DNA from: Paramecium tetraurelia
Taxonomy: Eukaryota > Ciliophora > Oligohymenophorea > Peniculida > Parameciidae
Length of the DNA: 64,000 nucleotides
Direction: 5' to 3'
Assembly: GCF_000165425.1 (NCBI RefSeq)
Contig: NW_001799111.1
Location: 71,779 to 135,778, forward strand
A program made the position numbers and the translations under genes. Position 1 is the first letter of the stretch. Each line of letters starts with the position of its first letter. The notes beneath the pieces were generated by a model. The model made no database searches. It was not told the DNA's origin and saw nothing but the letters and a program-made list of their open reading frames with translations. Positions 15,392 to 47,389 of the stretch are shown piece by piece.

Positions 15392-16475
15392 ATGAAATCA
15401 ACATTGACTGTGCTCTTGGTTGTTTTAGTGTCTGTCTAGGGTTTCTAGATCGATATGTTCAGCAAACATCATATCCCCAACAGAAACATCATGGAAATTA
15501 TGATGTAAATCGAATCCAAACTTGCCTCAGGAGGTCCATTCGACACAATCAACACAATGTTGTAAGACTTCAGAACTTCAGTCACATCAGAATAAATTGC
15601 TCATGATGACTTGTATGCCAGATAAAAGAATGAATGCGATTCTGAATCAGCTTTCAGAAAGGGATAAATTCAAGATGCCAGCAAGATCTTGAGTGCTTCA
15701 ACCAACCAATTGAACTTGTGCTCATTCTAAAGATAAAAGGCAAAGGCTGAATTCGGTATGACAGAAGACCAACTCACCATGAACTAATAACACTTGTCAT
15801 TGATCCAAGAAGTCAGAAAGACTGAATAAGAGAACTTCAACAAGATGGCCGTCATCTTCTAAGATGCATTGAGAGTTATCGATGAATCAGTTTATTTGGC
15901 CAAGAAATTCAGCGTTGGTGATGCCAGTTTGATCGAATTAGCTGATGCCACAGGTCAAATGATGTAACACTCAGTCAGTTTGAAGAGAACTGGATCATAT
16001 GCTGCAGTTTTGGCTTCATTGGCCAGAATTTCTTTGGCTGAATAAGTTAGTTCAGCTGATGTTGAGAGATTGATCCAATTATTGTAAACCTTAAGGTAAT
16101 CTATCCATCAATATATTTAGAAACAACATCGAAGATGCATACAATCAATTCACAGCTGAAAACAATTAAGCTATTGTCTTATACAACAACTAAAAGGAAA
16201 GAATTGACAAGAACATCGTCAGATTAGAGAAATCCAAGACCAGACTTGAAGATTAAATCACCGATTTGAATGGATGTGTTGCCACCTAAACTGCCATCTC
16301 CTAAGCTGCTAGCAACAAGAAGTAAAGAAACCAAAAATTGTTGGATGATGCCACTGCTCTTTGCACCACCTTCAACAGTGAATACGATAATGCCTCAGCT
16401 GCTAGAAGATAAGAATTAGTCCTCTTATCTGAAGTCGAAAGATTAGTAGAAAAAAGATAAAATGAAATTAAATGA
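15392..16475 (+). CDS. Trichocyst matrix protein (TMP family)
   Basis: 352 aa with one 25-nt intron near 16096. It begins with a signal peptide (MKSTLTVLLVVLVSVQG). The rest is strongly helical, rich in Ala, Asp, Glu, Gln and Ser, with a few Cys and coiled-coil heptads (DKNIVRLEKSKTRLEDQI). This matches TMP precursors, which are cut in the secretory pathway and packed as the crystalline core of trichocysts, the dart-like secretory organelles of Paramecium. Codons end in C or G far more often than in neighbouring genes, as expected for very high expression. TMPs form a large multigene family; the exact subfamily cannot be named by eye. Confidence 0.9.
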
Positions 16476-16897: not shown

Positions 16898-17525
16898 ATG
16901 TAAGCTGACCAGGAAATTGTTTTGAAATTATTATTCGTTGGGAGCTCTGTTGGGAAGTCATCGTTAATACTCAGATATTGCAATGATGAATTTAAAGAAG
17001 ATTTTTTCCCAACAATTGGAGTCGATTTTAAGTTAAAGTAATTAGAATTTAATGGTAAAGCCATAAAGTTGTAGGTATATATGTTATCTAAAATTAGATT
17101 TGGGATACTGCAGGATAAGAGAGATTTATGACCATAGTCTCAAGTTATTACAAAGGAGCTCACGGATTTTTCATTGTTTATGATGTTACTAATAAGCAAA
17201 GCTTTGAAGAAGTAGCAAAGTGGGTTGATTGTAAATTAGATTATCCTATTATTATAGAACTTAAAATAGACACAAATCCAGATGTGCCTAAAATATTGAT
17301 TGGGAATAAATCTGATTTGAATGGGGCAAGAGAAGTCACTCCAGAAGAAGGTTAATAATTGGCAAACACTTTAGGTGTGCAATATATAGGTATCATTGTT
17401 AAATTTAAATAGAAACATCTGCAAAGGAAGGATTTAATGTTGAGCATGCATTTCAGACTTTGCTGGCTGAAGTTTATGCTCGTCATGAAAAAGAGGAAAA
17501 AGAGAAAGAATCCCAAAAACAATGA
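16898..17525 (+). CDS. Rab-like small GTPase (copy 1)
   Basis: 193 aa with two 23-nt introns. The guanine-nucleotide motifs are intact: P-loop GSSVGKSS, switch I threonine in FFPTIGVDFK, WDTAGQERF, GNKSDL and ETSAKEG. The TIGVDFK block is typical of Rab1/8/35-type Rabs, which control vesicle traffic. The C-terminus ends EKEEKEKESQKQ and has no cysteine, so ordinary geranylgeranylation is not possible; it may act unanchored or via a partner. The 3' neighbour sequence TGATATAATAAAACAA is shared with the second copy at 26754-27375, and both introns sit at matching positions. Confidence 0.9.
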
Positions 17526-28389: not shown

Positions 28390-31300
28390 ATGAATCAAAA
28401 AGCTACTAATCTCTTTATGTTCATTATTTTTGGTTTGCTAAAGTAATATTCATTCTTATAACAGATAATGTTTATCTGATTGCGGATACATAAATTCAGG
28501 ATCTAGTTTATTGAGTTTAACTGATCCGCAATAATAAATAGATATAAGTTTAGATAATTTGGTGCTATAAGGTGCATCTAATATTGGATATGGTGTATGG
28601 ATAAAGTATTAGCCTTTTGTGCCTATTTCTTAGATTAGTATGATTTTTATTCGATTAATTAGCGACTTAAGGCTCAACATCAGGAGGTATGACATTCAAA
28701 GCAACTGGGGATTCAGGATCTTTTATATATCTGCAATAGCAGAAGGATACAAAATTCAATATGTTAACTGTTTATATTACAATTTCGGCGGCATCTAACA
28801 CAATAATGCATAATATATTTTATTCATTTCAATCAACAACAGGGACTGTTTCTTTCAGTTTTGAATTTGGAGAATATGAGGGAAGATGGATTTTGTTTTA
28901 TGTTTATTACGATCTTTTGTAAAAATAAACAACATTAGGTTTTTATCAAGCAGAATAAACAACCTCAACACTAACTAAATAATTATAAGATATCCCTTCT
29001 CTTGTAAAATAAGTTAGACATATAATTGGTGGTGTATAGGAAATAAAAAATTAATTGGGAGAGAACTTAAGCTTGTCTTAATTTAAAGGGAGAATATCAT
29101 CATTATTCAGCAAAGAGCAACTTAACATATTTTTGGATTTGAATTCATTTTTATCAACTTGTTAGATAATCCAATCTTGTGTGATAAAATAGTATAAGAT
29201 GTCAGGGTTTAACTAATTGTTCACTGGGAATGGATTTACAAATAATAGTACAAGTCAATTAGAATAACAAAAATATGTTATCTAGGGTTGGGTTAAAATG
29301 GATTTTTTGTTTGATGATAATTATCTTGAAACAGTTATTTTCAGAGTAACAATCAATAATAATTACAATGATGACATGACAATAGGAGATAAGGAACTCT
29401 ATTTGAAGTATTATTAAAGCATGACACCAGCTTTAAATGGGTTTTCATTAACAACGTACACATACACTTTTCCAGTGGAATCAAAATAATAGAGTTCGGG
29501 CACTGATATCTTAACAGTAACTGGAATATAATACTAAAATCTTTTAATTAGTTGGCATTACATCTAATATGAAATCGGGACAAATAATAATAATGGATAA
29601 CCTTTATTTTCTTTATTTTTTCCATCTTTAAATTATGTGTTGCAATATAAATGGACTGTAAAAATAAATCATTTTACTGGAACCATCCTATATTATTTTG
29701 TGGGGGGTGACAATTTTATCAAAACTTATCTGCTTGGATAATTAAGTGATTTGACTTTGACTACCTATTGTACAACACCATAAATAACTTTAAATCCTAA
29801 GTGCCATTATTCTTGTTAAACATGTGATGGTCCTGGAATATCTAATTGTTTATCATGTCCAACTGACAGTTTTAGAGTGCAGTCAATAACTTAGAAGACT
29901 TGTACATGCAAAAACAAATATGTTGATATTGAAAATGATCCAATATGCTAGCCAGTAGTTGTTAAATTCCCGTAACTGGAAGAAGATGAAGTGGAAGTTG
30001 TTTGTAACAAAAGAGGATTTGATAGTTGTGATGTTAACGCTCAAAAATGCCTTTTCGGTTACTTTTTTTATAAAGATAACTGCATCTAATGGTATTTATA
30101 ATTAATAGATAAGTCCTGGTTATTCCTTCTATAGTTCAAGATTTCAGATTTTATGTTCCAACTGTTTCTTTGATCCAACAAGTTTTTCTTAGAATTTATC
30201 ATGTTCAGAGGACACCAAAACTTATTCGTAAGATGATGAAAATGCGTATTTCACCACTGAAAGATAGAATAGGGAAATTGAATTTTACACTGCTAATCTA
30301 AATTTAGATGGTTACTATGAGTTGACTTTATAGTAAGGATTTTTATAAGCTGGCACATGTAAGAAGGGATTTTTTTTGGATTCGAAATAATAATGCAGTG
30401 CTTGTTTGGAAGGTTGTGAAACTTGTGTAAAGAAAGGGATTTGTTTGAATTGTTTTTCTAATTATGCTTTGACAGATGATTATCTATGTTAGTAATGTGT
30501 TGGCTGTTCTAGTTGTACATTCTCTAATCAAATTACTTAATGTACCTCTTGTAAAACTGGAACATATTTGACATCATTAGGATCATGTTAATCTTGTGGA
30601 TAGCATTGTGCTAGTTGTAATTCACAAGGTTATTGTAATTATTGTGATAATCCAACTTTATATTTCTTGTCATTTGATGGTAAGAACTGTGAAATATGCA
30701 CAATTACTAATTGTTAAATTTGTTATCATTATTTTATAAAATAGGGAGTAATATATACAAAACTTGATATTAGTGCATCTGTTGTTGACAGGGCTCAATC
30801 CTAATTATTCATTGGTTGTGCACTCTGTCAGAAAAACTTATACTTCAATTAGATTACTATATAATGTGAAGCAGTAACTTAAGATTCTGGAAATGGTTCC
30901 AATGGTTCTAATGAAATTGATCCTGTTCCCCCTGGTGATTAGAATGGTAAGGATACTTAGGTAGTCACTGATTCATGCACTTTTGGTCTAATTACAGATT
31001 CTCAAGGCACAAATCATTGTTTAATCAGTTCAACCAGCGCTACTTCAACCCAAACCACTTATTGCTCAACAATCTCAAATTGTTAGTAGTGTATCTCTAA
31101 TTATCTCTTGGCCAACACATTTTGTATTGTGTGTGCGGATGGATACTATTCAAGCATTTTAACTGGAAAATGCAATCAATGTGATTCCAGTTGTTAAACC
31201 TGTATTCAATAAAGTAAAGATTATCAAGATTATTGGAAATGGGGAATTAAAGCCTACTACAAATATGTTTTGAATTCAGACGACTCTCATCCTTTTGAAT

Positions 31301-34300
31301 AATATGCAACACAGACATCTGAGTCAGAATTCGAATTAATCTGTACATCATGTCCTAAAGGTTATGTTCTTAATGAATTCACTTGCATTAAGGATTGTAA
31401 TGAAGATTGCACTGATTGTAGCATAATCAATGGGGTTTCTACATGCACATAATGTTTAGAAACTCCTTATGGATTCTTAAAGAGCTAAAACTCTAAAGGC
31501 ATTTGTCTAACTTGCCCAAACAATTGTGCTGCTTGTTTAGAAAGGTCAACAGAAGAAATTCAAAGTATTAATCCCCATTTCGTTACAACGCAGACCAATA
31601 TTAAATATACAAGAATTTGTTATGAAAGATTTCAATAAGATTCAACTGAGGGGCAATTTTACAACGATTAAACTATCTAAACCATCTCATTTTGTGAAAA
31701 ATATGGTAAATGCTATCATAGAGCTATTCTCAAATAAAATGTTTATTGTCATTAAAGTTAATACGATTAAGATTTATAACAAAGTGCAGATTAATAGGTT
31801 TTTCTGTAAAACAATATATATATTGATGAACTTTTTAAAACTGGCTATTTGAAGGTTGTCGAAACCTCAAGTTTATATACTTATTTTAATGAAAAGGTAG
31901 TAAGAGTAGTAGAATACTAATTTAAATTCATCTAAGGTAATGCACCATCCTGTTTCATATAATCTGATTCTAAGTTATAAAATAAAATTCAAGAGAATGT
32001 GTTTTCCATTTAGTAAGTAAAATTAAAGCTTATTGGAGATTAATATCCTACCACTATCATAATAGATAAAACCCTATAAATAAGCAACTTTGCATCTGTC
32101 TCATTTGAAAATATTTAATTTCAAACTGCAATTCAAATTAATTATGATTCTAAATAATCTTTTATTATTTTGCAGAATATCCAATTGAAATTGAATCTAA
32201 TAATTAAAGATTGTGTATTTACTACAACTAATTCAACTGAATAATTGAAATAATTTTAATTTATTTCTGATTCAGCATATTCATTAACTATTGATAATCT
32301 TATCATGAGAGACTTTAAAGTTTAGGATTCATCCGTATTTTCATATTCAATTTCTTCAGGCTTTGAACAATAAGCGATAATATCAAAACTAGAAATTATA
32401 ACATCATATTTTAAAAACTCAAACATCCTTAATTTTTAAGCTAAATCCAACAATCTCTATGTAAATCTTTAACTGAATGATGTATCTATTTCCAATACTC
32501 GATTTGATAAATCTAATTTGACAAATACAGAGACCTAACTTTAATATGATATTGGAAAAATTACTGTTAATAATTTGACTCTAAGTTCTGTTATTTTAAA
32601 TGGTAAATCAACTATTTTTTCAGTCTAAGGTGCTGCATCTTTTACTACCAAAACAGTTACGATTTAAGATTTATTTATTAGGAATAATTCCTTTTTTTAT
32701 TATTCCAATATCATTTAGATCTCAGACCTTTCTGCCAATAACACTATAATTTAGGATAGTAAACTAATCACAAATGATGTAGATTTTGCAATATCAGATG
32801 ATTCATTACTTAACTCTGCTAAGATTTCAATTGCCAATTTCAAATTAGAAAACCTCCAATATAGCAATGCATAAGCAATTTTAAAGCTTGTTTTATATGA
32901 AAAAATTGATTCTCAGGCTGTCAGCATCGATTCGTTTACACTCAACAACAGTTTATCATTACTAAATTTGATACCAAATTATATCTCATATGAGCAATCA
33001 AATATTTATATAGAGTGTTAGTAATGCAAATTGAACTCGGTTTATATTTAAAGAGGGTATGGTCTTCCAGAAATCACTATTGTGCGCTCACAAAACCTAA
33101 CAATTAAGAATTTGTATCTTTCACAATCAGCTGCTTATTATTCTAAAACATTGCATCAATCTTTTGAGTGCGTTAATAATTTTGCCTATTCTCAGATGTT
33201 TCATTTTTTATATATTGGATTCTACAAAAATATCACAATTAAGAATTTACAACTGAGCAATAGTATCACATATAACAACCCTTTTATAATTATAAAAGGA
33301 TATGACTTAATGGAAAAAATAGAAAATGAATAGATTGATATTATAGATTCTATTTTTGATTCTAATATGCTTATCATTACAAAGGCCAATCGTGCCACTT
33401 CTATCATATCAATCCTCTCAGAATAATCAACTATTGTGACGTTTAACAATGTAAAGTTCTATTATAATCATCTTAATCAATATTTTCAGGATTTATCAAG
33501 ATAATCAGCTTCAACATTGCTTATTCAATTACAATAAGGTAACTTTTATCTTGAAAATTCTTATTTTAAACAAAATCTGGTTACAAATTCTACAGATTCT
33601 ATTTTGTACCTAAAAGCCATAAGTGTAGTAATATCTAATACTAAATTTCAAAAAAACAACATATTATAACTCTCTATAATCAGCTAGAATATCTTGTTAC
33701 CTAATGATGATTAAGATGAGATAAATGGAAAAACTTTAACGAATGCTTTTCCAATAAGTTCTAAAAGTGGAAATGGATTATTAATTGCAACTTATCTTAC
33801 TTTAGATAAAGTGAGAGTGGAATAATCTTTTTCAAACTATGGTGGTGGATTCTACATTAATACACAAGGAATTAGCAAGATTGTGATAAAAAATTCTAAA
33901 TTTTTAAATACGTAAACATTAATGTAGAGTTCTTCTTTTTCAGCTGGAGGTTGCATTTATATTGATGCACAATTATCAAAATTAGAATTAACTATATCAT
34001 CAACTACTTTTGACACATCTATTAGTAGAATAGAAGGAGGAGGCATATATATTATACCATCCTAATAGGAGAATAATATTTAAATGACGAATTTAAATGT
34101 AGTAAATTGTTACTCCATAAAAAGTTCCTTTCTATCGTTTTAACCCTCCAGTTTGGACAATATAAAATCTTAGATTTATATAAGTGGTGTAATTTTTTAG
34201 AATACTGAAAAGGGATTTAATAATTTTATTTCACTATTGCTATCCCCATCAACCGCAGATCTTGATTCCATTCGTAACAGTAATGCATTGATATCGATTA

Positions 34301-37300
34301 AATATGCAAGCGTAAGTATAAACAATTGTAGTTTTTAATCTCCCCAATTTTCATATTTCTTGGACATAGAGTCTGCTGCTAATATTTCTTTGCAGAATAT
34401 CGAGATCATTAATTCCACAGTTTTATATTCCCCACTTCTCAAAATGAGTCTCAGGCCATGTAAATATTACATTATTCAATTTAGACTACAATAGCAATCT
34501 GATGATCAAAAATTTAACAGTACAAAATGTGATTTAGAAAAGAATAATCGTTGATACTCCTTGTTTAGTAACAAGTCTAATTGCTTCTGGATCTTTTGTT
34601 TGTCCCTTAGTAGCCACTACTTAAAATAAAAAATTATCTGATTATGACACAACATCAATTTAGTAAATAACAATGGAATGCAATTAGTACCTCATATATT
34701 AAAATGTCTCCTACAAATTTAGTCTTATAGAAATAGATGACCTAAAGACAAGCCATAATTTCTAAGCAGAAGACATTTCATTTGATTCAATACAATGTTC
34801 TGATTGCTAATATGGAATTCTTAGATTTGAAGAGATAGAACAGTCAGATACTGAAAATATCCTATTTTCAAATATTAAGATAAGAGACAGTAATTGTGGG
34901 TAAACAGGATGCTTATCTTTACTTTAATATGAAAGCGATTCAATATTAAGGAAGGATTTATTATCCTCTTCTCTTAATTAAAGAGTACTCTAACAACACG
35001 ATTACTATAATTTAACTTACAATTTAATTTACCAAGCAAGAATATTAAATTCTTTATTTATTAATAATATTGCCATTTATGGTGGATCTATATTTATAGT
35101 AGAAATATCCTCAATATTGCATGGCTGTTACTTTAAAAATAATTCAGCCAGTATAGGAGGTGCTATTTATTATTTCTCAAAGCAGACTTAATTACACATT
35201 TTTGAAACTTAAATCCTTGAGAATAAAGCCAAAATAGCTGGGGGATTATACTTAAATTCTTAGTCATTACAAACTACAACCTAACTTGATGTTTACTTAT
35301 CCAATAATAATTCAACCCTTTTTGGTTCTGATGTTTTTGAGAATCCTAGATCCTTAACAATATCTTTAGATGCAGGAAAAACATTTCTAACCAAAAACCA
35401 GATATCAAAAACTGCGACGTCGGTAGTTGAATAAATTGTCATCATACCTTATAAGATTTTAGGCTAAGCTGAAAAATCCAAATTCATTATGTTTCCATCA
35501 GGAAGAGCCATAGGAACCTATAAATATTTTGATCAATACACATCTTCGTATATTCCCTACAATCTTACTTTTAGAATCATAGCCCTTAACAAATACAACA
35601 CTTAAGAAAAAGAATTGGAAGGATCTACTTGTACTATTTCTCCAAGCATTATGAATTCTACTACCAAAGAAACAATCTCAGGATTAACTGGAAGTTTATC
35701 ATACACAACTGTAAAATTTAACTAGACCTCTGGTGACTTTAATTTGGATGATCTTATTATATACTTTAATCCTACTTATGAACCAGAAATTATTATGTAA
35801 TTATCAATATTTTGTAATATCATTTCAATACCTTAATATTAATCCACTCCACCTTATTCTATTGATAATGCAATTACAAACTATAGATTATTGGTGGATA
35901 TAAGAACATTTAATTGTTAATTAGGTGAGTATTAGAATATGACAACAGGTGGTTGTACTTTATGTGATACAGTATAGAATTAATATTAAGTTTAATGGAG
36001 TGCTTAAAGTTGTAGTTATAAGGATGATTAGAAAATGAAATCAATAGAATCTTCAATGATTGAATTAAGATTTGGTTATTGGAGAGCCTATTATTATACT
36101 TAAACTGTTGAATATTGTTATCATTTGCCATCAAATTGTGAAGGTGGTTGGAAACCTGGAGATCAATCATGTATTGAAGGTCATATTGGAGCACTCTGTG
36201 AACAATGTGATCTCTATAACATCAGATCCTAAGGTTCCTACTCTGTTAGCTCTAAATACTCCTGTGGAAGCTGTGATCAAATAATAGGCAATGTTTTAAC
36301 TATCTTTTTTATCAGCGTATGGACTCTTATCTCCATACTGATGTCAGTTAACAGTACTGTTGAGATGATTGAAGAATTTATTGCAGGTTTAAGATTAAAA
36401 GCCTTTGGGTTTACAGTGCTAATTAAACCAGCTTCAACTGCTATTTTTATTAAAGCATTCACAAATTATTTACAAATCATTTCTACTATTGCAACATTTT
36501 AACTTGAAGTACCATCTGGTTTAGCCTCAGTTGTTAATAGTGTAGGAAATCCAATCGAATCAATGGCATATTCTTTAGACTGTTTCCTTATAAGAATCAC
36601 AGACATTGAAATAATTTACTTTAGAATTATTTGGAGTTTACTCTTGGCTACCTCATATATTATGGCATTTTTTATCATTCAGGGTGTCCAAATATTAGCA
36701 AAATCTATAAAATATAATACAGCTTTTGTTTCGACTGCCTTAATATACGTTTTTATATATTTACAACCGAATTTGATTGCAGGCTTGATATCCCTCGTTT
36801 CATATAGGATCATTTCTGATGAATATTGGATTCAGGGTAATGTTTCTTATAGATATGATACATATTCACATGCCAAATGGTTGATATCATTTTGTTTTCC
36901 TCTCTTACTCTTATTTAGTTTTGTTATACCAGTATTTTTTTTTTATGGAGTAAGGAATAATAGAGGCTAATTAAATAAGACAGTAGTTCGTTAAAAATGG
37001 GGGTACTTGTACAATGAATACAAAATACATGCCTACTATTGGGAAACCGTTAAAATATTGTAAAAGGAACTGATTATTATTGTACTGGCATATTATGATG
37101 ATCACATTGCTATCAAGGCTTCTCTTGTATTTTTAGTATTATTCGGATACAGCTTTGTAACAACCTCATAAAAACCATATATTAGTGGTGAATTGAACTA
37201 TTTAGACACGCAATCCACAATAGTTTGTGCAGTTTCAATCATATTAGGAAGTTCTATAAATACTGCCCAAAAATCTAACTTAGTTGAAATAGTATGGCCC

Positions 37301-37859
37301 TTTTACATTATCATTGCCATTTTAAATGCATATTTTATTTTTAAAATGTTAATAAAAATATTGTTTGCTTATTTTGATAAATTGCATGAACAAATTGATA
37401 AGGTTAAGGAGTTGATGGTAAGCAATTTCCCAAATTTAATTAAGAAGCATCCTTTTATATAAGATTTATTTGAAAGTAGAAAAAAACAAAAAGCAAGAGT
37501 TAAGGCTAGATTTACCAAAATTAAAAATCATTTGTTACCTTAGGCAAAATTAATTATTTAATTTAAAAAGTAAATAAATTTAATCATTCATTTTTAGGTA
37601 AAATAATTTAGATTTGCCTGGAAGAATAAATACACAATTATCTGATTATGATGAAGATATGTAAAAGAAAATGGAAAAAAATATTGACATTAATTTGTGT
37701 GCTATTAATCCCTTATCTCCGGAGTGTAATTCTGATAAAGATTCAAATGTGGATTCTTTATTTAAAAAGCCATAATCATCTAAAGTTTACCCGGAGCTAA
37801 TAATTAATTATATGAATTAAGATAGTTTAAAATCAAGCATCCATCATTCTCAAAGTTGA
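28390..37859 (+). CDS. Giant cysteine-rich surface receptor-like protein with about eight C-terminal membrane spans (copy +)
   Basis: 3,115 aa; introns at about 28443, 28638, 30092, 34460 and 37570 (22-28 nt). Order: signal peptide (MNQKATNLFMFIIFGLLK); a beta-rich N-terminal domain with YGVWIKYQPF, likely concanavalin/LamG-like; from about residue 460 a growth-factor-receptor/furin-like cysteine region with many C-x2-C motifs (SCTFSNQITQCTSCKTGTYL); about 1,500 residues of Asn/Ser/Ile-rich short strands resembling a right-handed beta helix; a second Cys-rich patch; then hydrophobic segments such as LTIFFISVWTLISILMSV and WLISFCFPLLLLFSFVIPVF, about eight in all; and a roughly 170-residue cytosolic tail. 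The layout resembles an adhesion receptor. Ligand and role unknown. It is tail to tail with its paralogue. Confidence 0.85.
35873..36282 (+). repeat. Near-identical tract shared with the neighbouring paralogue (arm 1)
   Basis: This 410-bp stretch, inside the Cys-rich segment just before the first membrane span, matches the reverse complement of 39614-40024 with one substitution (near 35908) and one single-base length difference. On both sides similarity drops sharply to ordinary paralogue level. Sharp edges around near-identity point to gene conversion or very recent exchange between the inverted copies. Confidence 0.9.
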
Positions 37860-38018
37860 TTTTTGAAGGAGATTTTAATACTTTAATGACTTATATAATT
37901 TATTTTCGTAGGTTATCAAATAATTATATATGTATCTGCGATGATTAATATAATAAATTATTAATTTGGAATATTCAATTTAAGTTTTGGTAAATTGTAT
38001 ATATCAATGAATATTTAA
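37860..38018. other. Short convergent intergenic spacer
   Basis: About 160 bp separate the stop codons of the two giant genes, so their 3' ends face each other with room only for short 3' UTRs. No feature seen. Confidence 0.6.
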
Positions 38019-41000
38019 TCAAATATCAGCACTTTATCTTGCACTCTCCACTTCCAAATCTATTTCTGGATGTATTCTAGTACCACTTGGTCTGGGAAAT
38101 GAAAAAACAGATGATCTCTCATTCAAGATGTTGGTTGGGTACTTTACTAAGGTTTTTAAGTTTTATCTTTCGGTAATTATTTCACTTTATTTTGGACTAT
38201 TCAAACTTTATATATCTCCATAATCAAACTCTTGGATTTCCTTCTCTCTTCCTGAAGATTTATATGTGTCTACTACGCAAGGCAATTCAAAGTTATTGAA
38301 CCTTTTTGAATAACATTATATATTACTTTTTAAACTCTAAAATCTTTTTAGCCTAGGGGAAAATATATTCTCTGATCTTTCCATATCTTCCTTTAATTCT
38401 TATCTATTATGTTTTGCGGCTTTCTAGGATCTACTTTATATATGGATGTTAATTGGCTAACTTGGGGAATCTCTTGGAAATAAAGTCTTTAATAATATCA
38501 ATTTTATCATGGAGTTTCTTAAAATATGCAAATAAAATTTGCAATAGCATTTTTAATATGTACAAGCCATTTAGAACACCAATTATAATGTAAAAAGGCC
38601 AAACAATCTCTTATAAATTTTATTATTAAGCAGTATATATGGAACTAGCCAAAATAATTGAAACAGCACAAACAACAATAGAATGGGTGTCTAGAAGATT
38701 TAATTATCCAGTCATATAAGGTTTATTCGAAATTGTCAAGTAGCTATATCCAAATAATACAAGAAAAACTAAAGATGCCTTGATTGCAATGTGATCATCA
38801 TAATAGGCAAGCACAATAATAATTACTTACTTTTATAATATTTTGATAGTTTCCCAATAGTAAGCGTGTAATTTGTATTCATTATACAAGTATCCCCATG
38901 TTCTTCTTACCTTAGTCATATCTAGTTGGTATTTATTTTTATGGACTCCAAACCACAAGAAAAAGGGAAGGACGCAGCAAAATATTATTAGAAGTGGAAA
39001 ACAAAAGCCAACCACCCATTTGGCATGGGATATAGTATCATATCTGTATGCAACATTGCCTTATATCCAATATTCATCAGAAATTTTTCTATAAGATAAT
39101 AGAGATATAAGCCCTCCTATAATGTTAGGTTGCAAATAGATGAATAAATAAATGAGGGAAGTAGAAACGTATGAAAAATCAATCTTAGCACGCTTAAATA
39201 GAACTGCAAGACCTCCTAAACCAAAAAATATCGTGATATACATGGTAGCCATAATTAATCCCCATATGATTCTGAAGTAAATGATTGATATCTCTGTAAT
39301 GGATACAAGGAAACAATCAAGAGAATATGCCATTGATTCTATTGGATTGCCAACGCTATTAACCACAGAGGCCAAACCAATTGGAACTTAAAGTTGAAAT
39401 GTGGAAATTGTAGATACAATTTACAAATAATTAGTAAACACCTTTATCAGTATAGCCGTTGAAGCTTCTTTAATTGCAACTGTTACTCCAAAAGCCTTCA
39501 ATCGAAGCCCAATAACAAATTCATCAATCATTTCCACAGTACTGCTGACTGACATCAAAGTCGAAATGAGAGTCCATAAACTTATTAAAATAATACTAAT
39601 GATATTGAATGCAATTTGATCACAGCTTCCACAGGAGTATTTAGAGCTAACAGAGTAGGAACCTTAGGATCTGATGTTATAGAGATCACATTGTTCACAG
39701 AGTGCTCCAATATGACCTTCAATACATGATTGATCTCCAGGTTTCCAACCACCTTCACAATTTGATGGCAAATGATAACAATATTCAACAGTTTAAGTAT
39801 AATAATAGGCTCTCCAATAAACCAAATCTTAATTCAATCATTGAAGATTCTATTGATTTCATTTTCTAATCATCCTTATAACTACAACTTTAAGCACTCC
39901 ATTAAACTTAATATTAATTCTATACTGTATCACATAAAGTACAACCACCTGTTGTCATATTCTAATACTCACCTAATTAACAATTAAATGTCCTTATATC
40001 CACCAATAATCTATAGTTTGTAATATTTTACTTGATTTCAAATGGAGGTTCATCATTATATTGAGGAATAATTATTGAACTACATTAGATAGATAATCGA
40101 AGAACAAGGTTATTAGTCAAGTTTGGCATAAAATAGATTACTAAATTATCTAAATTATAATCGCCAGAGGTTTGATTAAAAGTAACGTTAGAGAAAGAAA
40201 GATTGTAATTAACATTAGGTTCTTCAGTTTAAGAAGATATATTAAAGGCAAAAGGTTTTATTGTGCAATAAGAATTCTATAATCCTTTGTTTTATTTGTT
40301 AAACTTATCTAAAGCTATTATCCTAAGAGTTAAATTATATGGAATAATTGTGGACGTATATTGATCAAAGAAATCATATGTACCTATGGGCCTACCTGAT
40401 GGGAGAGTTAAATATGTCATTTTTTATGAATAGCCTAAAACTTTATAAGGCTTAATGATGATTTATTCTGTAATACTGCTTTCGGTTACTGAAACTAATG
40501 ATTTTTATAATAGAGTTTATCCTCCATCGATTGAAAGAGTCAAGGACCTCGGGTTTTCAATCACATCCTCTCCATACATAGTAGAATTATTGTTTAATAA
40601 TTGAATATCTAATTCTTTTGTCAATTAAAGGGATTATTAATTTAAGAACACTCCTCCTGCAACCTTAGCTGTATTTTAAATTATTTAAGTTTCAAGAAGG
40701 AAAATTTAACTTTCTGATGAAGAATAATAAATGGCTCCTCCAATTTATGCTGAATTGTTTTTGAAAGTACATTTCTTAATTAAGGTACCAAGTTCTACTA
40801 TTAATATTGATCCCCCATAAAATGCAGTGTTATTTAAAAAAGAACTGTCCACAATATTAATTTGTTGATTTAACTTAAAATGTAGGTTATCATAATCATG
40901 TTACTAAAGTATTCTTGTAGGTCCTATTAAATTCTATTTAAGAATGAATTCATCCAAACTTTTTACAATTGATAAGCAGCCTGTATTTCCGCATCTACAA

Positions 41001-44000
41001 TTTTTAATAGCAATTTAAGATAACTTCATAGTTTCTTTGTTTTGTTAGTAAATTTCAAGAATTCTAAATATACCAAATTAACAGTTTTCACATACAATAT
41101 TTGTTAACTCCATTTTTTCAACTTTTAATTGATGAGTTTAATTAAAGTTATCTATTTCAATCAAACTGTAATTAAATTGCTTATTTGAGTATATTAAAAG
41201 TTGATTACAAAGAAATTGTAGTTCTTTTTATTTTGTTTAATCTTTTTCATTCAAATTTAAAGCTACTTAAGATACATGAGTAGGACATTACAATTCAGAG
41301 TGAATAGCAGAGTTAGATTAAATGCAAGAATCGGTATAAATCTATTTTCTCTCAATGACATTAGTTAATTATAGATTAGATATTTATAACTAGCCGGAAA
41401 TTTCTAAATAATATTATAATTGATTAATTACATGTTCTTAAATTTAATTTGAATAATGGTGACTACAAAATGGTGCTATTAATAACTTTGACATTAGATA
41501 AAATAATATTTTCAGCCTATTCAATTTTAATTAAGAATTAAATAACAGTAGAAAGAAAGCTACAATTATATATGCTAAAATTTCCATATTATAAAAATAT
41601 CATAGGATTAGAATGAGCAACATTTGAAGCATCATCTTCAGACAAATCTTAGATTAAAGAAAAATATTTTTGAAAACCGTTTTCAGATGTTTAGAATTGT
41701 ATATTCTTAAAAATTACATTCGATTTAATTGTATCTATCTTAGAAAGAGTGTATGAGAAAAATGTATTTTACAGTGAAAAGCATTCTCTTACGATCAAAT
41801 TAAAAATTGTAATCAAATTATAACTGAGTGAGGGAGTAATATAAATAGCTCCTCCATCATGTCTACTATAAGATGTATCTATTATAGAATCATGCAATTA
41901 AAAATTGAGTTGTGAGGAAGATGCATCAATATATAAGCATCCACCTAATGCATAAACTGAATCATCTAGAGAAGACATCGTATTGTAAAAAAATGAATTA
42001 GCAATTCGTATTACACTTATTGCTTGAGTAGTAATAGAAAATCCTCCACCATAATATGAGTAGGATGAATTAATAGTAATGTTATCTATATTCAGAGTTT
42101 GGATTATAAATAATCCATTCCCTCCATTAGATTTTACTTAGAATATGGAAGCATAATCAATCTCATTTTAATCTTAAGATTATGAAAATAGTATATGGTT
42201 ACTAATTCTAGATAAATTCATTAACCCATTATTTTAGAAGTAAGAATTCTGTAATTACAAAACAGAAGATTTAATATGGAGGATTGCATCAGTAGAATTA
42301 GTGACAATATTTTAGATAAATTTGCATTCATTCATTAATACACTGCCTTGTTATAAGGATATCTAAATGGTTGTAGCTGAAACTATAGTTAAATCTTGAA
42401 CATATTCATTTAAATGATTGAATGCAAAATATGCGATAGACAATGTGACTTTTGATTTTTATTCTGACTCTATAGAAATCAAGGAGGTGTGCTAATTTGT
42501 ATCAGAAATAATAAGAATATTCTAAATAAGTTTGATATTTTAAATAACAATTGTTTCAGTCAGTATCTTTTACAGAGTATCATATCCTTTAAAAATGATG
42601 AATGGACTGTTGAAACTTAAACTATTTTACACATTCACTTAATCAATAAACACATCCTTATATTATCCGATATAGATGAAAAAGTGCATATTTAAAATTG
42701 CAAATTATTTCACACATTCAAATGAAGAATGAAGTGCTTTTGGCAGGAATTTTGAATTTTGTGAAATAATCAAATTTCTCATTTCCAATTTTTCCGAGTT
42801 GATTATTGTCATTTCTGGTAATCCATATCCTCTAATAATTTAAATATTTTCTAAGAGACAAATTTAGCAGTCAATGTAAATCATAGAATTTTCATAAGAA
42901 ATTTACTAACTTTAAGTTTTGGATACTGTTTAACAATTTTATAATTGGAATTCCATTAATATGAATTTTAAACCACCTATTTCATCATATTTGGTGATTA
43001 CTAAAATTTGCTATTACTATTCATATACAACATTAAGAATTTAAAAATTCTTTAGGAATACATCAGAGGATGCTAATAATGCTTATTCGGATTTAGTATA
43101 ATCCACTTTATTAGTAATTAAAATACTATTCATAATACTTGTATTGTTCACGATGATGTCGTGAGTATTTATGATATTTGAGGCATAAAAATTTGAACCA
43201 AGACTTAGTAATGAGTTATTTAAGATTATATTCGATATCACAGACTTCTCAGCACAAGAGAGTAATAGAAAGTTTGAATTCCATTAAAATTCAGTGTTCT
43301 CAACAGTGATAGAATTAATATCTAATTATCCAATTGTATAATTCAATAAACTACTACTATATATAAAGTTTGATTAAATAAATTTAGTATCTTTAATTTA
43401 AATTTAACTTATTACTGAATTTAAAGACAAATGGTTAAGTTGAGCTAAATATTTTATCAAAGTTGAATTGAAAAAATAAGAGTCTTTAATAATTACGTTA
43501 TCTATCTCAATTGCATTCTTTAAAATTTTTTATTGAGCTGTGAATTGGAAAATATCTGAATCGTAAATGTAAAAGTTAGATATCATTAAGTTTTTAATAT
43601 ATAAAGAATAAGGAATATTTGAATTGAACGTGAAAGAATAATTTTTATCTGTTTCATTCTAAGTAATAAATCCACAGTTTATCAATTTTAAGGTTAAGGT
43701 TAATTTCAAATTAAATAAAGATAGAATAGATTAAGTATTTTGGGAATCTTGCTTTTATGCACAGTTAAACCTGATATTTTGAAAAGTCACAGTAGTATAA
43801 TTACTAATTTTAAATTCTACTGGAACCTACAATTGTGTTGGATTAGTTTATCCAATTAGCATGAGATCAACTTATTAAATAGCAAATACATTTTATTATA
43901 AAGTTGAGTGAATTTGAAGTATATCTATAAATACACAGTTAGGTTGATTACCCTATATAAATGTAAATTAATATTCAACATTTCTAACAGAGATCTCATT

Positions 44001-47000
44001 TAAATATTAATAAAGTGAAGCTGTTTCTTTGGAGATCAAGTATGAATCATCAAAAAACTGTTGTATATAAATATTCTTTGATGCAAAAAATTCATCATTT
44101 GATTCATACTATTTGGTCATTAAATCATCAAAATCACAATAGATATTCTATTTAATTATTATTTTATTATAGCATTATAAGTTTTCTGTGCAAATGGATA
44201 TTGTCTAAGTGAAAGAATCATGAAAATAATTTTCTTATAAATTAATCTTATTTGATTTCTCGTAGCATTTTCTTGTAAGTTGTACATTTGAATTAGTTAC
44301 TATAAAATATGGATTTATATCAGCGATTTCATCTAAGGATCTATTTAAACAGGCCAAACAATTAGATGGACATGTTAAACATGTTCCTTAAGTATTTAAG
44401 CTTTTGAGAAACCCTGATGAAGTTTCATAGCACTTAATACAAGTAGATTTTCCATCTATAATTACACATTCCTTACAGTTTTCATCACAACCCTTTATGC
44501 ATTGATTTTGATGCAAGATATACCCTACTTAACATGATGTACATATCAATTCTAAATCAGCTTCAGCATTTGTTGAAGCATAGTTTTCAAAAGCATGATC
44601 ATTATTGGAGTTTAGAAAGTATCTATAAAAGGCTTTAATTTACCATTTCCAGAAATCTCGATATTACTTATTTTATTGAATACAAGTCTTACAAGTGTGT
44701 GTACATTACTAACATTAGCCTGTCAAAACACCAGAATAATAGCCATCTTCACATATAATGCAGAAGCTATCAGTTTCAATATAATTTTTTATGCATTACT
44801 TACAATTTAGGAGAGTAGGACAATCAATATTTTAAACAGAATCAATATTACTTGAACTGATTATACATTTTTGAGTTGCATCACTTAAAATTAATGCAAA
44901 ATCACAGTCATCATTCACTGGTTTCAATTCGCATTTCTAAGTACTTAAATTAAAGAAATAGTCTTATTTACATAAAGCACAGCCAAAAGATACTTACATA
45001 AAGTCAAAATTTATGATATTGAATTATAGATCCAAATTAGAAATGTAGATTCCACCATTCATCATATATTGAAAACAATAAATACAATTTTCTATATTGC
45101 ATTCTTCGCAACTTTTGCCATCAAAAGAGATATACCGTAAAGAGGGTGATCCATTACAGAAGTAACAATACCCATCTGAATTGCAACTCTGACAATTAAC
45201 CCCACATGATACACATTTGCCATACAATAATTCTTATGTTCCATAACAAGTATCACACCATTGTTTTCCATTATTTAATAAACAAGTTTTACAATTCGTG
45301 CACTTCTTACATAAATGTTCATCATCCTTGTAAAAACCTGGAAAACATTATTTACATCTATAATTAGTAATACAGGTTTAACAACCCTCCAAGCATTCCT
45401 AACATTCCTTATCTTTGTAAAAATATCCTTCCTTACAACTACCTTCACCTAAACATCCTTAACATAACTTAATTAAATAGTTATCGTTTCCATCTTTTGA
45501 AAGTTCAAAATAACTAACATCATTAGGTTTTCTCAAGGAAACGGAAAATGTATATTCAACTTGAGAATTGTAAGTCTCGGCATCTTGAGTACATTTGAGT
45601 GTTTTTGCAAATATCTTGGGGTCAATTATACAATCAAAACAAGTAAGTTGTGTTCTTGTAAAAATATCAAAATAATTTGGACTAAAATAGACAAATCTAT
45701 TACCATTAAACACAATTTTAATCTAATTAGAAATATCCAAAACTACATTCAATACTATCATTAGCACAATTAACATATCCTAATTTTGAGCATTTCAATT
45801 CAACTTCTTGTTTGGTAATTTGGGGAAATGCCTATAAAATTGATTTGCATTCATATAAACCATCCTAATCAACATATCTCTATTAACAAAAACAAGTCTT
45901 TTCAGTTTCTTAATGCTATCTAAAACTATCCTCAGGACAACTTAAACAATTATATTAAGTGGGACCATCACATGTTAAGCAAGTATAATGACATGATGGA
46001 ACTAGTAATGCTTCAACTGGTTGACAGAATGTTTCTAATAGGATATCACTTACATATCCTTTCATAAATCGTTGAGAATAGTCATCCCCTCCAACAGATA
46101 CATAATACACAACACCTGTAAAATGTTTAACAGGTTGAGACCATTTGTATTATTGAAGCTATTCGATTGTTGGAAAATATAAGGAGAGCATAGGTTTTCC
46201 ATCATTGTTTTAGGTTCCAAATTCATATTAGAAATAATGCCATTTTAAAAATAATTCTGAAAATTAATCTCCAAATTTTGAAATTTTATTATCTTCTTAT
46301 GTCTTATACCTTCCCCTTGATGGAAATGCATATGAATAAGTTGAAATTTGAAGTCCATTTTCAAGGGGTAAACTGCTCTAAAAATATTCAAGAAGAACTT
46401 CCCTGTCTCCAATGTACATATCATCACTATAATCTTTATTGATTGTTATTCTAAATATCACAGTTCTTTATTCTGCTTAGCTTAATTACTCCATGATAAT
46501 CCATCCTTTCAGTACATAAATTGGATCTCTGGTTTAAAATGTATTTGTTCGTATAATATCATCCCCATTCATTGCTTAATTTTTATTACTTACCATGTAT
46601 TAACTAGGATTACAACTATCGTATTCAAAAAAATTTTGGCAAGAAGCAAGGTTAGAGAAAATATTTTCATCGTGTGTTGTAAAGATGGTAGACATTAAAC
46701 CAGTGAATTGATTTAGAACTATAATTGCTCCATTTTAATTTGTATATTGAAAAAAACCACCGATTTTATGTTATATGCTCGCTACAAAAGGTGGCACATC
46801 ATCAACTGTTTATGAGGGGATGCTTTCTAAGGCGGTGTAATATCCAAATGTGGATTTTCCTAAAAGTTAATCATAATAGACATAGAACATCACCCATAAA
46901 CCTTCATAGATAGAACTGTCAAATGTAAATTAGAGAGTATTTAAGGATGATTTAAATGAGTAAAATACATTATGTTGTATTGTTTAAGCAGTTGAATCAA

Positions 47001-47389
47001 TTTTTATTGATACTACAAGCATTTTAAATTTATTGACACTTTATTCCATTGAATAAATAAACTAGCCGCCTTGAACAATAATTTATCCATTTGATGTGGT
47101 AACTATCTATGAAGTCCGGTCGGCTAATATTGTAAATTGTGAAATTTACTCAGATCTTTCATTTCAATAAATGGTTGATATTTCACCCAAAGTCCGAATC
47201 CTACATTCATTTGTCCTTGAACTACATCCGTCTCCAAGGTTTGGTCTTATACCGATTAAGGATCTGATGGATTAACAAGTGGCATAAATGTTAAAAATTA
47301 GCATTAACTTAGTACTTTTCTTAATATATTCAGATAGCTTACACCGCCAATAAGAAGATGAACAATATTTGAAAATATGTTATCATCAT
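38019..47389 (-). CDS. Giant cysteine-rich surface receptor-like protein (copy -), one frame break
   Basis: About 3,080 codons, with introns of 23, 26, 22, 28 and 25 nt at positions largely matching the plus-strand paralogue. Same order of parts: signal peptide (MMITYFQILFIFLLA), FGLWVKYQPF domain, furin-like cysteine region (CKKCTNCKTCLLNNGKQWC), a long beta-helix-like middle, Cys-rich patch, about eight membrane spans (FCFPLLIIFCCVLPFFLWFG) and a cytosolic tail. The whole gene is open except near 39820, where one extra T relative to the other copy shifts the frame; coordinates minus introns leave 3n+1. Everything downstream is well preserved, so the break is recent, an assembly error, or the gene is newly inactivated. 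Function unknown. Confidence 0.82.
39614..40024 (-). repeat. Near-identical tract shared with the neighbouring paralogue (arm 2)
   Basis: Reverse-complement partner of 35873-36282, one base longer. The extra base lies in a short T run (read on the minus strand) near 39820 and is the only disruption of this gene's frame. The two arms are about 3.3 kb apart and form a large inverted repeat. Confidence 0.9.

Follow-up and report, generated by a model that had tools for sequence, protein, structure and literature searches.

Probable recent gene conversion between two giant, highly diverged receptor-like genes arranged tail to tail in Paramecium tetraurelia

The DNA analyzed here (the window) is a stretch of 64,000 nt of the P. 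tetraurelia contig NW_001799111.1, in which positions 28390-47389 are occupied by two giant paralogous genes predicted to encode receptor-like surface proteins. Gene L (28390..37859, forward strand) contains 3115 codons in genetic code 6 and specifies a product of 3115 amino acids (aa), while its inverted paralog, gene R (47389-38019, reverse strand), contains 3081 codons when a break in its reading frame is passed over. The genes are arranged tail to tail, with a spacer of 159 nt (37860..38018) between the stop codons. A first-pass annotation, made from the sequence without database searches, had described two genes of about 3,100 codons with about 160 bp between their stops, and the measured values agree with it. 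L and R share a tract of about 410 bp that is nearly identical in an otherwise strongly diverged alignment, and recent gene conversion is its probable cause.

Five introns were distinguished in each gene (28443-28464, 28638-28662, 30092-30113, 34460-34484 and 37570-37597 in L; 47342-47320, 47149-47124, 45703-45682, 41431-41404 and 38326-38302 on the reverse strand in R), and all five pairs share alignment columns. The third intron of L was originally placed at 30004-30025 and was shifted by homology with R; the earlier placement underlies the substitution rates, the codon usage comparison of possible donors, the scan for Cys-rich patches, the earlier round of shuffles and the gene-model training presented below, while the codon counts were corrected. 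The ten introns are 22-28 nt long and none of them (0/10) is divisible by three, in agreement with the account of Paramecium introns in a published review, according to which more than 95% of them measure 20-34 nt (PMC11334263). The G+C content of the window ranges from 0.22 to 0.34 per 2 kb and its long reading frames have TGA as the sole stop codon. By these traits, together with the short introns, the window resembles the macronuclear DNA of a ciliate of the Paramecium type.

The tract occupies positions 35873..36282 (forward strand, 410 nt, frame intact) in L and 40024-39614 (reverse strand, 411 nt) in R. The two copies differ by one silent substitution (AGA/AGG) and in the length of a short run of T, by one base; the first-pass annotation had likewise reported one substitution and one one-base length change, with exactly these coordinates. 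All 136 aligned codons of the tract (136/136) specify the same residue and, once Met and Trp are set aside, the codon itself is also the same in 129 of the 130 same-residue pairs; the codon straddling the downstream edge was assigned to the outside. If one mismatch is allowed, the longest run comprises 410 aligned nt (the extra base of R was left out of the alignment). In 5000 shuffles of the codon columns the longest such run did not exceed 42 nt and none of the shuffles (0/5000) reached 410, while a harsher control, 5000 shuffles within the tract and the membrane domain, gave a maximum of 83. The maxima of an earlier round, with 2000 shuffles each, were 39 and 60. The edges of the tract are abrupt: the six 30-nt bins before it contain 17, 23, 14, 15, 18 and 10 matches, and the six bins after it 17, 21, 26, 19, 21 and 21, so that identity falls to 10/30 immediately before and 17/30 immediately after the tract. 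Gradual edges, named in the first-pass annotation as a pattern that would speak against conversion, were not found. The reading frame is continuous across both edges in L and in R, as expected of homologous replacement.

Over their whole length the two proteins share 48.3% identity (1476 identical residues among 3054 aligned codons). With the tract excluded, the residues agree at 1340 of 2918 positions, and 656 of 1317 same-residue codons are identical (Met and Trp again left out). The number of synonymous substitutions per synonymous site (dS; Nei-Gojobori method with the Jukes-Cantor correction) is 0.01 in the tract and 1.8 upstream of it; the membrane domain has 1.91 and the short tail 1.16. 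Values near 1.8 amount to saturation of the silent sites that surround the tract, and by this measure L and R are very old copies. Within the membrane domain, where the nonsynonymous rate (dN) is 0.23 versus a dS of 1.91, 141 of 279 same-residue codons are identical. Nucleotide identity amounts to 0.510 in the 100 codons before the tract and to 0.740 in the 100 codons after it, which bears out the earlier description of the flanks as clearly diverged. The longest exact words common to L and R outside the tract measure 20, 20, 18, 17 and 15 bp.

The one-base difference lies in a run of three T residues in R (39819..39821, reverse strand) where L has two, and it is a frameshift, a point overlooked in the first-pass annotation. 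Past it, R meets an in-frame TGA (39787-39785, reverse strand) after 2501 residues and ahead of all predicted membrane spans. An initial gene model recovered only its two training genes and was replaced by a self-trained one, which called 3, 2 and 2 frameshifts in its first three rounds and, in the final round, 27 genes with a gene span of 47,756 bp and a single frameshift, the break in the R tract. The model is a rough one: every training set included L and R, the latter with its break passed over, low-scoring or overlapping calls were discarded, R was started at 47285, one intron of L was misplaced, and short introns could mask other frameshifts. An intron that would rescue the frame of R was sought among GT..AG stretches of 12-60 nt, with a length of 1 mod 3 and starts at 39900-39740. 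Six were found, five of them frame-compatible (58, 55, 13, 37 and 55 nt), but such an intron is unlikely, since none has GTA...TAG ends and none falls within 20-34 nt.

Past the break the frame of R stays open for 510 codons, for which base composition alone gives a probability of about 5e-5, a rough figure given that the neighbouring frames hold just 7 and 18 stops. Together with the low dN and high dS of the membrane domain, the open frame suggests, provided that the break is genuine, that R remained constrained until recent times. We infer that R is a very young pseudogene, a gene with a truncated product or an instance of consensus error; the extra T itself may have arisen by recent mutation, by an error of repair synthesis or as an error of the consensus. 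Should the frameshift be true, conversion or its aftermath would have disabled a giant receptor-like gene.

The predicted architecture of L comprises, in order, a hydrophobic start, an N-terminal domain, CxxC-rich repeats, a beta-helix-like stalk, a Cys-rich border, approximately 8-9 predicted membrane spans and a short tail. The density of CxxC motifs reaches 13 per 200 residues in L and 14 in R. The tract encodes the second Cys-rich patch of the proteins, situated at the border between the ectodomain and the membrane domain. The predicted spans of L are encoded at 36284..37373 (forward strand); hydropathy averaged over L and R shows nine peaks of at least 1.0, seven of them at least 1.5 and two weak (1.40 and 1.28). 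A fold model of the membrane domain was unusable, its mean predicted local distance difference test score (pLDDT) being 35.9.

Part of the stalk of L (32200..34455, forward strand; 752 residues) gave a mostly beta, repetitive model with a predicted template modelling score of 0.74 and a mean pLDDT of 69.0, the matching part of R (41436..43688, reverse strand) serving as its only other row; four other models gave 52.6 to 66.1. A Foldseek comparison of the stalk model with PDB returned 322 matches at E <=10, none of which (0/322) reached E 0.001, and template modelling scores (TM-scores) were low. Among the best 50 of the 322 matches, PL6 alginate lyases fill 10 of the first 11 places, with hemopexin-binding protein in the other; phage tailspikes come next among the matches listed, which also contain a few proteins, such as the TOL-1 and LGR5 ectodomains, that are not known as beta-helices. 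These weak matches, for the most part to right-handed beta-helix proteins, favour such a fold for the stalk.

Sequence searches gave no assignment within their scope. Six pieces compared with Pfam (three of L and three of R, with the first exons and R past the break left out) yielded three matches, each under the curated cut-off, one of them to the Chlamydia PMP repeat in R, while three pieces of L gave no match in NCBIfam. Among PDB sequences, the matches were to nine chains of peptidyl-prolyl isomerase/MIP, with E values of 0.18 and above. In a search for relatives in contigs, one stretch of viral contigs and 30 stretches of genome contigs fitted the patterns, none was confirmed in either set, and exact patterns gave no matches in either; some of these patterns contained Q and some were exact, and relatives could escape them.

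The near-identity of silent sites, the abrupt in-frame edges and the saturated flanks, all read directly from the alignment, are jointly best explained by recent ectopic gene conversion between L and R, single or repeated, a process which we infer from this pattern and consider probable. An old inverted local duplication would have given rise to L and R, followed by divergence up to saturation of silent sites. Recently, about 410 bp where the ectodomain meets the membrane domain would have been copied from one gene, which could be either, into the other, and during or after this event R would have acquired one base in the tract that broke its frame ahead of the membrane spans. With 81 silent sites and one silent change among them, a mutation rate of 1.94-2.44e-11 per site and division (PMC11334263) would correspond to some 2.8e8 divisions for the two copies, a figure with a very wide range, as it derives from a single change. 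Conversion is described as common between paralogs from the whole-genome duplications (WGDs) of Paramecium (PMC10195154), and one conversion between older paralogs, of the intermediate WGD, was deduced from the gain of an internal eliminated sequence (PMC3464196). Moderate divergence need not prevent conversion where the paralogs are neighbours (PMC3966223).

Several observations weigh against this interpretation. Both flanks lie under the level of about 80% identity above which conversion chiefly occurs and below which it is reported as rare (PMC3924818), which makes initiation the weak point; the exchange would then have started either in a stretch whose likeness earlier conversions had preserved or by a template switch of repair synthesis that needs little homology. 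Although a study of P. tetraurelia ties conversion to higher GC (PMC5485702), the GC content of the tract (0.310) shows no clear rise over its four 400-bp flanks (0.268-0.328), and that of third codon positions is 0.197 versus 0.229 and 0.221. Codon usage indicates no donor, the log-ratio of 2.6 towards L lying inside the scatter of control windows. A conversion test of P. caudatum Hsp70 genes gave two very short regions, possibly due to misalignment (PMC3606833), so that evidence of conversion is not general in the genus. Finally, the case is built on one assembled sequence and on the comparison of L with R.

Gene conversion between inverted copies had already been proposed in the first-pass annotation, and this part of the proposal holds on the strength of the silent sites, the abrupt edges and the saturated flanks. 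Its likening of the pair to surface-antigen genes is not supported, and the suggestion that recombination could shuffle or homogenise the ectodomain border goes beyond what is seen: one tract in one species was found, and its sole visible consequence is the frame break of R.

How the exchange came about may be considered in a more specific form, in which one core was converted repeatedly since the duplication (concerted evolution) while its flanks escaped. This sub-case of conversion is possible, if tentative: it would solve the problem of homology posed by the lack of any exact word longer than 20 bp common to L and R outside the tract, and selection could keep a shared form of the Cys-rich, membrane-proximal part that the tract encodes, but the tract is sharply bounded and even throughout, without older, half-decayed margins. 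The same short words argue against an artefact in which R differs in truth and the assembler inserted the sequence of L. A 410-bp inverted repeat is difficult for short reads, the R copy holds the only frameshift of the final gene-model round, and gap filling from mispaired reads could produce such an insertion; however, an assembly graph built on longer words would have no path at these in-frame edges, and we regard a chimera as unlikely for this reason. Purifying selection alone, if strong and directed at the encoded domain, would fit the position of the tract, a Cys-rich domain beside the membrane, and the identity of its protein sequence, but it is extremely improbable, as the identity extends to silent sites (129 of 130 same-residue codons, versus 141 of 279 in the conserved membrane domain).

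It could also be supposed that the inverted tract is a crossover site at which the inner segment of about 3.3 kb flips, swapping the membrane parts of the receptors. The tract ends about 10 nt upstream of the first predicted membrane span, a flip would presumably fuse ectodomain and membrane part in frame (the frameshift aside), and Tetrahymena mating-type genes are joined by recombination within their terminal transmembrane (TM) exons (PMC3608545). Those genes, however, lie head to head and are joined with deletion rather than inversion (PMC3608545), and the window holds one orientation, with no direct evidence of two, which leaves such a flip very doubtful. Still bolder, and a shade less credible, is the idea of a maintained recombination site where conversion or inversion swaps membrane parts between diverged ectodomains, the break of R marking the gene that is silent in the state sequenced; if true, this would be a ciliate mechanism parallel to, yet distinct from, the joining of TM exons in Tetrahymena.

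Among other features of the window, a second inverted pair of paralogs was found at 16898-17525 (forward strand) and 27375-26754 (reverse strand), with 76% DNA identity; by their motifs we take them to be Rab-like small GTPases. Their 3′ halves are more alike, including the second intron (21/23 identical positions versus 17/23 for the first). A second converted patch was considered here, as a run test with shuffled triplet columns gave 1 to 12 of 5000, but it was unsupported by a codon-level scan (1086/10000; Fisher P 0.16) and is not claimed. A predicted secreted, coiled-coil-like protein is encoded at 15392-16475 (forward strand); in our view it resembles trichocyst matrix proteins, which would suit a Paramecium origin. 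Comparison of the window with itself also revealed a near-perfect (96.8%) self-complementary stretch of 31 nt at 1395-1425.

Paramecium surface antigens are repeat-bearing proteins with a glycosylphosphatidylinositol anchor. L and R have several predicted spans and lack a tandem array; none of the seven tandem repeats of the window (0/7, default score) falls within 28390-47389. Gene conversion is mentioned for Trypanosoma, and not for Paramecium, in passages of a paper on Paramecium surface antigens (PMC9788069). The MTA/MTB proteins of Tetrahymena (PMC3608545, PMC10901506) are likewise large surface proteins with a Cys-rich, furin-like segment by the TM region and with recombination at this border. 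Their genes, in contrast, lie head to head, encode five TM helices and undergo programmed joining from a germline array, whereas L and R lie tail to tail, are not known to undergo such joining and have more predicted spans, by the hydropathy peaks seven or nine depending on the threshold. MRC2, which belongs to the Tetrahymena mating-type recognition complex, is reported to combine eight TM helices with a pectin-lyase fold (PMC10901506), an arrangement that the nine hydropathy peaks (two weak) and the beta-helix-like model of L and R recall; the proteins of this complex measure 92-212 kDa, versus about 3,100 residues for L and R, and the resemblance is a lead by layout only.

Short, near-identical coding stretches in otherwise different genes are known in a ciliate family, the leucine-rich repeat genes of Tetrahymena, for which conversion is one possible cause (PMC6564038); in that family the shuffled units are uniform 90-bp exons, exchanged among numerous genes on different chromosomes, whereas in L and R a stretch within an exon is shared by two neighbours. 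Conversion between adjacent, diverged paralogs is described for fog-2 and ftr-1 of Caenorhabditis elegans (PMC3966223), whose converted part has 77% identity within an overall 82%, alongside about 70 bp of complete identity, while the L/R flanks have 51% and 74% and no exact word above 20 bp. The WGD paralogs of the Paramecium aurelia group (PMC10195154, PMC3464196) resemble L and R in carrying near-identical DNA where difference is expected; unlike them, L and R form an adjacent inverted duplicate with saturated silent sites around an affected segment of only about 410 bp. Neither the L/R pair nor any tract set in so diverged a Paramecium alignment is described in the literature covered, a weak negative given the partial texts available. 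Such a tract between paralogs saturated at silent sites would offer a clean test of the homology needed for conversion. Conversion between Paramecium paralogs is already in print, and the L/R pair is a further case, odd for the divergence that surrounds it.

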